Assembly (NCBI GenBank): GCA_000992345.1
Contig: LBUA01000005.1
Coordinates: 1 to 37,797, forward strand
Length of the DNA stretch: 37,797 nucleotides
Reading direction: 5' to 3'
Origin: Parcubacteria group bacterium GW2011_GWD2_38_12
GTDB lineage: Bacteria > Patescibacteriota > Minisyncoccia > GWC2-36-17
Part shown: one piece after another, positions 7,858-36,193 of the stretch
How the letters are laid out: each line of letters opens with the position of its first letter
Position numbering within the stretch: the first letter of the stretch is position 1
The notes under the pieces: generated by a model
Told to the model about the DNA's origin: nothing
The model's input: the letters and a program-made list of their open reading frames with translations, nothing else
The model's database searches: none
Translations under genes and position numbers: made by a program

Positions 7858-9126
7858 TCATATCTTTAATATATCATCAAAAATTTTTCTATCCTTAAAC
7901 GGCCCAATGAGCGCCAAATTCATTTTCTCATTTTGGAATACTTCACGCGCAACACCTAAAATATCTCTTCTTGTTACTTTATTTATCTTTTTAAGCACTT
8001 CTTCGGGCGTCATAATTTTCCTGGTTATAATTTCTTGACCACCAACAAATGACGCCCATTCATCTGATGTTTCAAGTCCAATTAAAGTTTTGCCCTTAAA
8101 ATTATCCTTCGCCTTTTTGAGTTCTGCATCCGTTATCCCCTTTGTCTTTATTTTCTTTATTTCATCCAAAGTTTCTTCAAGCGCTTTTTTGACTTTATCA
8201 TTACCCACGCCAGCATAAATCGCCAAACATCCCGTATCCGTGGAATGGTCAGTACCACTGTGAATGGTGTAGGCAAGACCCTGTTTCTCACGAATTCTTA
8301 TAAAAAGCCGTGAACTCATCCCCTCTCCGAGTATTAAAGACAACACCGCGAGAGCAAATCTTCTTTTATCAAAAATATCAAAAGCGCGAAACGATAAACA
8401 CCAATGAGTTTGATCTGTTTGTTTGGAATTAATCAAAATTTCCGGATGATGCTGATTTTCCACCACTTTCGGTTTTTCCTGCGGATTTTGCAAATTTAAT
8501 CTTGTAAAATATTTATTGATTTTCCCTAAAATTGCTTTTTGGTCAAACTTGCCGCTAACAATTAAAACCATATTTCCCGCGCCGTATTGAGATTTATAAT
8601 ATCTCACCAGTTCTTCTCTGGAAACCGTAGAAATTATCTCTTTGGTGCCTAAAATATCCCGACCCGCTGGCTGATCGCCATACATTAATTTACCGAGTAA
8701 ATCCCACACATGTCTTCGCGGATTATCTTTCACCATATTCATCTCTTCAATAATCACGCCTCGTTCTTTGTCCATCTCTTTTTTGTCAAATTTGGAATTA
8801 AGCAACATATCCGAAACAATATCCAACGCCAAATCCAGATGAGTCCAGTCAACCTTAACCCAATATCCCGTCCGCTCTTCCCCGGTAAAAGCGTTAAAAA
8901 ATCCGCCGACTCCATCCAGCTCTTCGGAGATAGAAAGCGTGGTCGGACGTTTTTTTGTTCCCTTAAACATCATATGTTCCAAAAAATGCGAAAGACCGTT
9001 GATTTCTTTTGCCTCATATTTTGATCCGGTCGCAAAAAGAGCCAACACCGTCACACTCGTCGCGTCGCGAAAAGGCACTGTTATCACCCGCAAATCATTT
9101 TTTAAAGTTTGTTTTTTAAATGCCAT
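7858..9126 (-). CDS. M16 (pitrilysin) family zinc peptidase
   Basis: HFLEHMMFKGT (HxxEH); start likely MAFKKQTLKNDLRVI rather than the longer ORF. Confidence 0.93.
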   Translation of the reverse strand: MAFKKQTLKNDLRVITVPFRDATSVTVLALFATGSKYEAKEINGLSHFLEHMMFKGTKKRPTTLSISEELDGVGGFFNAFTGEERTGYWVKVDWTHLDLALDIVSDMLLNSKFDKKEMDKERGVIIEEMNMVKDNPRRHVWDLLGKLMYGDQPAGRDILGTKEIISTVSREELVRYYKSQYGAGNMVLIVSGKFDQKAILGKINKYFTRLNLQNPQEKPKVVENQHHPEILINSKQTDQTHWCLSFRAFDIFDKRRFALAVLSLILGEGMSSRLFIRIREKQGLAYTIHSGTDHSTDTGCLAIYAGVGNDKVKKALEETLDEIKKIKTKGITDAELKKAKDNFKGKTLIGLETSDEWASFVGGQEIITRKIMTPEEVLKKINKVTRRDILGVAREVFQNEKMNLALIGPFKDRKIFDDILKI

Positions 9127-9175
9127 GATTTTCCAAATTTTAAAACGAAATGCGCAAAATTTGGTTAAAATCATG
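9124..9175 (-). repeat. Start-codon-proximal inverted repeat, possible copy D of the structured element family
   Basis: Minus: GGGGTGCTCATGATTTTAACCAAATTTT...AAAATTTGGAAAATCATGGCA; shares GGGTGCTCAT with the rpsH/rpsZ leader elements. Confidence 0.5.
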
Positions 9176-9306
9176 AGCACCCCGCTTAAATTTTTAAACT
9201 GATATTTATTATATTGTAATTTTAGTGAGCCGCAGGCGATACCGTGAGATATATTCCGAAATAAAATTAATGTCTATTTGGAATTTAGGCGGGGTCGCCA
9301 TGATTT

Positions 9307-27754: not shown

Positions 27755-27840
27755 GCTTCGCGAACAATTTAACAATTTAACTATCAACATTTAATCCGCC
27801 GCGGCGGATCACTTGTTAACCGTTAACTGCTAACTGTTAT
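27755..27840 (-). repeat. Heptad arrays around TCCGCCGCGGCGGA palindrome (rplF 5' spacer)
   Basis: aacaattt aacaattt ... AATCCGCCGCGGCGGAT ... gttaaccgttaactgctaactgttat. Confidence 0.75.
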
Positions 27841-28230: not shown

Positions 28231-28409
28231 TGTTGTCTAAATTTATAAGTGGAGCCATTGTGTAGCGAAATAAATTTAGCTACAACAATGAGCACCCTGT
28301 TAAATCCTGCTCGCAGGAATTTTGCGAAGCAAAATTATTTAACAGGGCAAGGTTTTATATCCGCTTTTTTAAGTTTATAGCAGTAAACTTAAAAAAGCGG
28401 ACAAAGCCC
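28231..28409 (-). promoter_or_regulatory. Structured intergenic RNA element, copy A (rpsZ-rpsH spacer)
   Basis: 18-bp perfect hairpin 28360-28401; three-way-junction-like 28295-28347; start-proximal hairpin 28256-28290. Confidence 0.7.
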
Positions 28410-28595
28410 TTACCAGCTTGATTTTTTTACCCCCGCCAACTCTCCCTTTATTGCCATTTCTCTAAAACAAATCCTGCACAAATCAAAATCACCGATAAAT
28501 CCTCTCCTGCGTCCGCATCTAAAACAGCGATTTACTTTTCTCGTTGAAAATTTCGGTTTCTTTTTCGCTCTTGCGATTACCGATGTTTTTGCCAT
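28410..28595 (-). CDS. rpsZ: 30S ribosomal protein S14 type Z
   Basis: [48 protein letters not shown]. Confidence 0.97.
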
Positions 28596-28770
28596 AATTG
28601 TTGAAGTTTTCAAGCTCATTTTGTAGCGAAGAAAATTTCACTACAATTATGAGCACCCTATTAAATCCTGCTCTGCAGGAATTTTGCAAAGCAAAATTAT
28701 TTAACAGGGTAAGGTTTTGTATCCATACCCTCAAATTTTCATTAAAAACTTAAGGGTATGGACAAAGCCC
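28596..28770 (-). promoter_or_regulatory. Structured intergenic RNA element, copy B (rplE-rpsZ spacer)
   Basis: Same framework as copy A with different stem sequence. Confidence 0.7.
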
Positions 28771-29313
28771 TTATTTCATCAATGGGAATCCAATTAATCT
28801 AAATAACTTCTCTGCCTCTTCTTTTGATTTCGCATCTGTAACAACTGTAATACCTAAACCGAAAATCATTTTTGAAGATTCCAAAACAACTTCAGGAAAT
28901 ACAATATGCTCTTTCACGCCCAATGTCAAATTGCCAAATTTATCCACTGATGACAGTTTAATGCCCCTAAAATCTCTGGTTCTTGGTAAGACAATATTAA
29001 TCAAGCGATCAACAAAATCATACATTCTTTTTCCTCTCAAGGTGACTTTAAGACCGATTTCCAATCCCTTTCTTGTTTTAAAAGACGCTATAGCTTTTTT
29101 TGCTTTTGTTTTAATGGGATTCTGTCCGGTCATCAATGCTAAATCCCTTGCCATCGCCTCAACTGTTTTCGATTCGCGAACAATCCTGCCCGTTCCGATA
29201 TTCACCACCACTTTAGTTATTTTCGGAACAGCCATAACATTAACATAGCCAAACTCTTTTTTTAAAGCCGGGACAACTTCCTTATTATATTTTTCTAAAA
29301 TTCTATGTGCCAT
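28771..29313 (-). CDS. rplE: 50S ribosomal protein L5
   Basis: VPKITKVVVNIGTG, TGQNPIKTKAKKAIASFKTRKG. Confidence 0.97.
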   Translation of the reverse strand: MAHRILEKYNKEVVPALKKEFGYVNVMAVPKITKVVVNIGTGRIVRESKTVEAMARDLALMTGQNPIKTKAKKAIASFKTRKGLEIGLKVTLRGKRMYDFVDRLINIVLPRTRDFRGIKLSSVDKFGNLTLGVKEHIVFPEVVLESSKMIFGLGITVVTDAKSKEEAEKLFRLIGFPLMK

Positions 29314-29395
29314 CACTTCGCGAACATTTGACCAGTAACATTGGACATTTGACTAAACCTCGTCAATTGTCAATCGTCAATTGTCAATCGTTATC

Positions 29396-30132: not shown

Positions 30133-30212
30133 ACTTTTAGCTTTTAGCTTTTAACTTTTAGTTTTTAGTCCGCCAGTTGACAGATTCTAACAGCTAACAG
30201 TTATCAGCTAAC
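30133..30212. repeat. Inverted heptad element 5' of rplN
   Basis: cttttag x n - GTCCGCCAGTTGAC - ctaacag ctaacag ttatcag ctaacag. Confidence 0.75.
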
Positions 30213-30278
30213 AGCCCTTGCACAAGCCATTATTTTACACAAAATACTGAAAAATTCAAGTCTTTTCCCGCAAAATTA

Positions 30279-31899: not shown

Positions 31900-31946
31900 G
31901 TTTCGCAAACAATCCAACAATTTAATCCGCCGCGGCGGATTAACTG
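31900..31946. repeat. Palindrome-centred heptad element 5' of rpsC
   Basis: aacaatccaacaattt - AATCCGCCGCGGCGGAT - taactgctaactgtta. Confidence 0.75.
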
Positions 31947-32357
31947 CTAACTGTTATTTATTTTTTTAGCTGTCTTTTTTACTTTTTCTTTTTTAGTTTC
32001 TAATATCTTTTCGCCGGCTTTTTGTTCATTTTCTTTCAATATTATTGTTATGTGGCTTGTTCTCTTTCTAATCGCAAAGGCTCGGCCAAATGCCCGTGGC
32101 ATACTCCTTTTTAAAACCGGACCGCCATCAACAAAAATTTCAGAAATAATCAGCTTATCACTATCCATTTTAACGTTGTTTTTTGCATTAGCAACCGCAG
32201 AATTTAATAATTTTAAAATCGGCTCAGCTGAACGCTTGCTTAAAAAATTAAGTTGCTTTTGGGCCTGTATAATGTTCATGCCCCTGATCAAGTCAGCAAC
32301 CAATCTTACTTTTCTCGGCGATATTCTTAAATTGTTTAATTTAGCTGATACTGCCAT
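31947..32357 (-). CDS. rplV: 50S ribosomal protein L22
   Basis: [26 protein letters not shown]. Confidence 0.97.
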
Positions 32358-32374
32358 AATTATTTAAATTTTTG

Positions 32375-32477
32375 AGCCCATCTTATGGCGAAAAAAATTT
32401 AGCCATAAGATGGGCTGGTAAGATTTTGTCCGCCTTTCTAAATTTTCTTATCAAAAAATTTAGAAAGGCGGACAAAA
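32375..32477 (-). promoter_or_regulatory. Structured intergenic RNA element, copy C (rpsS-rplV spacer)
   Basis: 23-bp perfect stem 32424-32446/32455-32477; 15-bp stem 32375-32389/32402-32416. Confidence 0.75.
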
Positions 32478-32480
32478 CCC

Positions 32481-32807
32481 CTATTTTGCTGGCGTGGCCG
32501 GAGCTGGAGCTAAAGCTGGAGCCGCTGCGGCTTTTTCCAATTCTTTTTGCATTTTGCCGCCATGCTTCACGAATTTTCTGGTCAAAGAAAATTCCCCAAG
32601 CTTATGGCCAACCATTTCTTCGGTAATGAATACCTCTATATGATTTTTGCCATTATGGACCCCCAAGGTAAATCCGACCATTTCCGGAGAAATAGCGGAC
32701 CTTCGCGCCCAAGTTTTAATAACCCTTTTGTCTCCGGGTTTTAAATTTAATATCTTCTGTAATAATTTTTCGTCCACATAAGGACCTTTTTTTGAACTTC
32801 TGCTCAT
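32481..32807 (-). CDS. rpsS: 30S ribosomal protein S19
   Basis: [54 protein letters not shown]. Confidence 0.98.
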
Positions 32808-33701: not shown

Positions 33702-33776
33702 TTCATTAGCTTTTAGCTTTTAGCTTTTAGTCCGCCAACCGGAGGATCTAACAGCTATCAGCTATCAGCTTGAATT
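33702..33776. repeat. Inverted heptad element 5' of rplB
   Basis: cttttag x3 - TCCGCCAACCGGAGGAT - ctaacag ctatcag ctatcag. Confidence 0.75.
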
Positions 33777-36112: not shown

Positions 36113-36193
36113 ACTTCGCAAACATTTAACTTTTAACATTTGACATTTGACTGAATTTCGTCAATTGTCAATTGTCAATTGTCAATTGTCAAT
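36113..36193. repeat. Heptad arrays 5' of rpsJ including GTCAATT x5
   Basis: catttga catttga ctgaatttcgtcaattgtcaattgtcaattgtcaattgtcaattt. Confidence 0.85.

Follow-up and report, generated by a model that had tools for sequence, protein, structure and literature searches.

The spacer between rpsS and rplV in Parcubacteria group bacterium GW2011_GWD2_38_12 is best explained, with a probability of roughly 0.78, as an internally deleted, decayed member (copy C) of a family of small mobile DNA elements, whose spread would involve a nuclease and whose transcripts would be cut by RNase III. The full element consists of three abutting hairpins and fits exactly between the stop codon of one gene and the start codon of the next. 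Such a three-hairpin element has apparently not been described before; we found no account of it in the open-access literature searched.

Copy C and other copies in the window

The window (the whole analyzed stretch of 37,797 nt, contig LBUA01000005.1) contains the S10/spc ribosomal-protein region of a 674-kb genome, with all r-protein genes on the minus strand. The rpsS-rplV spacer (123 nt) is made up of two hairpins only, from the rpsS stop up to the rplV start. The first-pass annotation, made from the sequence alone, had described a 23-bp and a 15-bp hairpin filling this spacer, and both were recovered by an inverted-repeat scan, the first with 23-nt arms matching at 100 % (32424-32446 / 32455-32477, loop of 8 nt) and the second with 19-nt arms matching at 95 % (32375-32393 / 32398-32416), of which 15 bp are perfect. 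The mRNA strand of copy C had a predicted folding energy of -69.1 kcal/mol versus a shuffle mean of -26.0 (z = -12; 0 of 200 shuffles). The loop sequence given for the second hairpin was also correct, and this loop (UAAAUUUUU, 32401-32393) is fully complementary to AAAAAUUUA (32373-32365).

Table 1. Copies of the element in the window and the parts of copy C
Feature	Position	Strand	Evidence or remark
Copy A, full element (P1, three-way-junction P2, P3/helix III)	28231..28412	-	Covariance model, E 1.5e-35
Copy B, full element	28596..28773	-	Covariance model, E 1.3e-38
Copy D, partial (P3/helix III), before peptidase-like gene	9121..9212	-	E 1.0e-11
Copy C, whole element	32358..32483	-	From rpsS stop TAG (32483-32481) to the base before rplV ATG (32357-32355)
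Copy C, P1 (H1 of the first-pass annotation)	32424..32477	-	23-bp perfect hairpin, 8-nt loop
Copy C, P3 local hairpin (second hairpin of that annotation)	32375..32416	-	Perfect 15-bp stem
Copy C, "conserved loop" UAAAUUUUUUUC	32390..32401	-	Homologous pairing covaries in other copies
Copy C, strand pairing with the loop, immediately before the start codon	32365..32373	-	Helix III

The kinship of copy C with copies A and B, claimed earlier from the loop and the framework, was borne out. A covariance model built without copy C matched it at 32352-32466 (41.8 bits, E 1.1e-8), although palindromes inflate such scores, opposite-strand echoes of true copies reaching 27-72 bits, and the score alone is not proof. 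Stronger support came from an element in a genome of another family (G017): over the 45 nt of the 3' arm and tail of copy C, which run from the loop up to the start codon, the two agree at 40 positions. The 5' arm of copy C is the perfect complement of its own 3' arm. P1 of copy C is the counterpart of the TAAGGGCTTTGTC...ACAAAACCTTA hairpin in full copies, with its usual asymmetries erased, and P2 is gone, consistent with the three-way junction having been reported as absent. We read copy C as a deletion derivative that has lost P2 and in which both leftover hairpins have become perfect palindromes, probably via intrastrand template switching. The first-pass annotation had asked whether a minimal form of this kind, with the first and last hairpins, is widespread. 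This was not supported: a pattern search of all fetched loci, limited to the patterns used, revealed no P2-less forms like copy C, and for this reason copy C looks degenerate. Short P2 forms occur at L122, L085 and L112.

Copy A begins at the TAA stop of rpsN (28412-28410) and extends to the rpsH ATG, and copy B begins at the TAA stop of rplE (28773-28771) and extends to the rpsN ATG. The left module of copy D is different (ATGGCGACCCCGCC...GCGGGG); the same ATGGCGACCCCGCC module recurs at L011 (C18), and in the region of copy D (9121-9306) the true start of the peptidase-like gene is probably ATG 9126 and not GTG 9180. When copy A was searched against the genome, ~20 further places matched, and the covariance model had several dozen matches in this genome.

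Architecture of the full element and its 3' fold

Without an ORF, the full element is ~170-250 nt long and has the order P1-P2-P3, with no unpaired bases between adjoining hairpins. On the mRNA strand, P1 of the aligned copies reads UAA(A)GGGCUUUGUC, followed by a variable stem and then ACAAAACCUU(U)A. P2 is bounded by CCC...GGG, which in this genome is CCCUGUUAAAU...AUUUAACAGGG, and here it holds two inner hairpins that correspond to the three-way junction of the first-pass annotation. On the 3' side of P2 are UGCUC, then helix III, formed by AAUUUUGU(AG)CUAAAUUUA...UAAAUUUAGACAAAAUU, and then GGCAUG or AUGGC. Covariation for P2 and helix III was analyzed in 9 related sequences only, so that the support is strong but is not a probability: 97 % of cells were paired, two-sided changes occurred in 9 pairs (27 cells), and the score was 0.291 versus 0.097 for shuffled alignments and <=0.054 for any slid version. 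Rfam searches with gathering and E-value thresholds yielded no relevant family match.

The second hairpin had been described as a unit with a conserved loop. Its local stem does exist, but its role as the unit is not supported: the loop (UAAAUUUA) is one strand of helix III, and its partner is a second UAAAUUUA located just before the start codon. The loop is conserved because it pairs with this downstream UAAAUUUA, and thus a loop-binding ligand is not needed to account for its conservation. In folding models, the dominant 3' fold of most copies is this long-range helix between the loop and the strand by the start codon, and not the local hairpin: of eleven 3' domains folded alone, eight had helix III as the minimum and the other three (copies B and C, and L100) had the local hairpin. 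Both folds make use of the strand GCUCAAUGUUGUAGC, and each partly excludes the other.

P1 and P3 carry motifs in the same order, and opposite-strand matches of P3 fall at P1. The reverse complement of P1 compared with P3 of other genomes gave 17.4, versus 13.3 for shuffled sequences and 14.2 for P1 in the sense direction, a weak identity.

Distribution, mobility and placement

The first-pass annotation had made recurrence of the loop and framework in related genomes the test of its reading, and they do recur: 106 of 289 genomes of the class, in many families, had a covariance-model match (E <= 0.001; these E-values are rough, and palindromes produce opposite-strand echoes). The class was judged to be Paceibacteria from named relatives; named Patescibacteria among the best rplE matches were Azambacteria, Sungbacteria, Moraniibacteriota and others. 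In a phylum-wide sample, high-scoring full matches were confined to this class and G551. Apart from G551, weak matches outside the class were rejected as full elements; most were P2 alone, a hairpin that is dispersed on its own in other lineages. For example, P2-only hairpins (ACCCTGTTAAAT...ATTTAACAGGGT), without P1 or P3, are dispersed in other Patescibacteria families (L360-L374), one of them at a prepilin gene, before GFTLIELLVV (L367). Phage and plasmid records gave no element match.

Occupied and empty versions of the same junction were compared in congeneric genomes, as the spacers at order-level empty sites for the three window junctions were too diverged to define the target. Three genomes of one genus, G099, G031 and G077, are ~90 % identical in this operon and differ at the rplV-rpsC, rpsC-rplP and rplX-rplE junctions. 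For example, one junction reads GCTATATAAAATAATATGGGTCAT in G031 versus GCTATATAAGGGCTTTGCTC...ACACGCATATGGGACAT in G077. At another junction of G031 the stop and start codons overlap as TAATG, and in G099 they are separated by an element that starts with TAGGGC and has a matching CCTAA partner strand. At rpsC-rplP the reading frame of G099 now ends inside the element. Altogether, seven junctions in one genus had both occupied and empty versions, with independent insertions in G099, G077 and G120; no close-range empty version of rpsS-rplV was among the sequences compared. No target-site duplication was seen at these seven sites. Instead, the native spacer was usually replaced by the element (0 to ~20 nt in the clearest pairs, longer in two more diverged pairs); as flank identity is only 70-85 % in several of the seven pairs, their empty spacers may have drifted. 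Such precise presence and absence in congeneric genomes shows the family to be mobile rather than an r-protein regulator. Given the lack of target duplication and the weak inverted symmetry of P1 and P3, it is not a textbook transposon. Two more hairpin repeat families were observed at r-protein junctions of G099: one of ~83 bp (L298:2058-2155), with dozens of copies in this genus, and one (L298:4259-4384) that fills rplV-rpsC where G077 has the three-hairpin element.

An improbable alternative is that the element is a cis-regulatory RNA of r-protein operons, in which helix III hides the start codon and the local hairpin frees it under the control of a protein or ligand. The two mutually exclusive 3' folds, a minimum-energy fold that varies among copies, the start codon in or beside helix III and the presence of three copies in one r-protein operon are all consistent with such a switch. 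However, the copies precede many unrelated genes and in a few cases lie before a tRNA gene or in a 23S-5S spacer, the same junctions lack the element in congeneric species, and there is no Rfam match. An autogenous r-protein leader was considered separately and rejected, because the element is neither confined to nor conserved in r-protein operons.

The ends of the mobile element are fitted to its neighbors. The left end is TAA(A)GGG and the right end is GGCAT(G) or abuts ATGGC, so that after insertion exactly between two cistrons the gene upstream can still use its stop and the gene downstream its start. Among the 37 copies with an upstream frame long enough to reach P1, the TAA of P1 was the in-frame stop in 32 (p = 3e-11 against a chance expectation of one third), and in five the upstream frame ran into the element. 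The location directly 5' of a start codon, about which the first-pass annotation had asked, was also found: in 54 of 65 classified copies the start codon of an open frame was in one of two fixed registers, ACAANNATGGC (19 copies) or TTGGCATG (35 copies). None of the 65 interrupted a reading frame internally. Many unrelated genes per genome are preceded by copies; among the exceptions are a copy that precedes a tRNA gene and another that lies in a 23S-5S spacer. In G023 (L138), rpsH apparently starts at a TTG from the right end of the element (TTGGCAGATCC), which replaces the native ATG.

Such zero-gap geometry with fixed stop and start registers could also mean that the hairpins bring stop and start together, so that a terminating ribosome restarts, and a mobile element might have been kept for this. 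We consider such a bridge about as improbable as the regulatory RNA, since most empty sites are 0-20-nt spacers that couple well without the element, five upstream frames read into it, and in copy C two essential genes remain separated although P2 and the greater part of helix III are gone.

GIY-YIG genes, proposed mechanism and known systems

Three copies of the element (C9 in G000, C66 in G016 and C27 in G148, the last upstream of an mraZ-like gene) contain a GIY-YIG ORF of 84-90 aa inside P2; copy C contains none. By sequence, the UPF0213 proteins 1zg2 and 1ywl are the closest relatives with a solved structure. A search of P2 gave no ORFs other than GIY-YIG, and in the elements among the fetched loci neither a transposase ORF nor a Y1 (HUH) gene was present. 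The copies in G000 and G148 align over 382 nt with 80 % identity, and this alignment covers the element and stops short of the flanking genes. As these genomes belong to different families, the sequence identity without flanks points to transfer.

These genomes have several to 15 GIY-YIG genes, most of them outside the element; many are located in rRNA, in duplicated pieces of tRNAs or within other inverted repeats at stop-start junctions. One element in G098 has a P2 whose arms (CCCCGCACCTTTTG) are also those of a GIY-YIG cassette, and P2 is therefore best regarded as a nested cassette that is either intact or has collapsed. At L064, L288 and L289, GIY-YIG genes adjoin partial duplications of the 5' parts of tRNAs, as if they inserted into tRNA genes and rebuilt them. 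At L065, L275, L276, L285, L291 and L296, they are flanked by inverted repeats of varying sequence, often CCC...GGG, several of them at stop-start junctions or in rRNA.

GIY-YIG genes are typical of introns, and the precise placement and the structure of the element would also fit an intron-like element, spliced from mRNA by itself or by an enzyme. This explanation is very unlikely: none of the 65 classified copies lies inside a reading frame, where splicing would allow it, no group I or II model matched, and copy C keeps hairpins only. Least probable of all is a transcription terminator or attenuator, or a chance palindrome, which would fit the strong intergenic hairpins, as no U-run follows either hairpin of copy C, a terminator scan of 32358-32480 was empty, and chance is excluded by z = -12 and by recurrence.

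For the mobile element, spread may depend on the GIY-YIG nuclease encoded within P2 of some copies. With P1, P2 and P3 abutting, a folded strand would present a junction open to cutting by a structure-specific GIY-YIG nuclease, and repair might then join the ends at TAA and AT(G) microhomology of the stop and start codons. In mRNA, the long stems would be cut by RNase III, the gene for which is present in this genome, thereby uncoupling the cistrons and freeing the start codon; without cutting or unwinding, helix III would mask start codons of essential genes. We tentatively consider, as a doubtful extension, a new kind of mobile element that lands at stop and start codons by pairing with its flanks, with GIY-YIG opening the junction and the spacer being exchanged. 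Its internal strands would pair with the flanking stop (UAR-GG / CC-UYA) and start (UGC-U-CANNN / NNNUG-GCA). If this were true, the element would be nearly neutral in operons as tightly packed as those of reduced genomes.

REP/REPIN sequences with RAYT, and IS200/IS605, have hairpin ends, produce no target duplication and contain an internal strand that pairs with the flank. The present element likewise has hairpin ends and no target duplication, and its internal strands would pair with the flank; in contrast to these systems, no Y1 (HUH) gene was seen within elements, and the GTAG at the hairpin foot is inconstant. Like MITEs and the pneumococcal BOX elements, which are small modular repeats (boxA-boxB-boxC) with an optional middle module (PMC3049150), it is small, non-coding, multi-copy, modular and strongly folded, the comparison with BOX being one of layout only. 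Unlike MITEs, it makes no target duplication, replaces the native spacer and has ends fitted to stop and start codons, and its linked ORF is a GIY-YIG nuclease and not a DDE transposase.

T4-like phages contain seg genes, small free-standing GIY-YIG genes that are located between conserved genes, mostly share their orientation and are tied to RNA hairpins (PMC2988022). The three copies with a GIY-YIG ORF are similar in these respects. However, the GIY-YIG gene of the present family is present in some copies only and lies within a three-hairpin element, ORF-less copies of which occupy many unlike junctions, whereas seg genes cut at a distance and are moved by repair between homologous flanks. 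Intervening sequences of 23S rRNA are long-stem inserts, sometimes with an ORF, that are removed by RNase III (PMC4990558). They resemble the element in being tolerated owing to their site and in having an ORF in some copies, but the element is in mRNA spacers, where RNase III would be expected to cut. A study of CPR bacteria reports GIY-YIG insertions in rRNA genes, judged to be outside the homing pattern (PMC11270868). These involve GIY-YIG genes in the same bacterial group; the study deals with rRNA genes only, and the parts consulted mention no intercistronic three-hairpin element. Overall, the element resembles MITEs, BOX and T4 seg genes, but it differs from MITEs in lacking target duplication and adds the stop-to-start fit.

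The tiny genomes of Patescibacteria (CPR) seem short of room for selfish DNA, yet this element enters even ribosomal operons; it is a clean case of a parasite that spares a gene-dense genome by an exact stop-start fit. It also suggests a possible role for many small GIY-YIG (UPF0213-like) proteins of Patescibacteria, and it warns that strong hairpins 5' of r-protein genes in this group need not be regulators.

Further repeat families were observed in other spacers of the operon in the window, at 27791-27840, 31921-31946, 29317-29395, 36140-36193, 30133-30278 and 33702-33776; they include ATCCGCC..GGCGGAT hairpins, GACAATTGACAATTGAC repeats and AGCTAAAAGCTAAAAGCT repeats.
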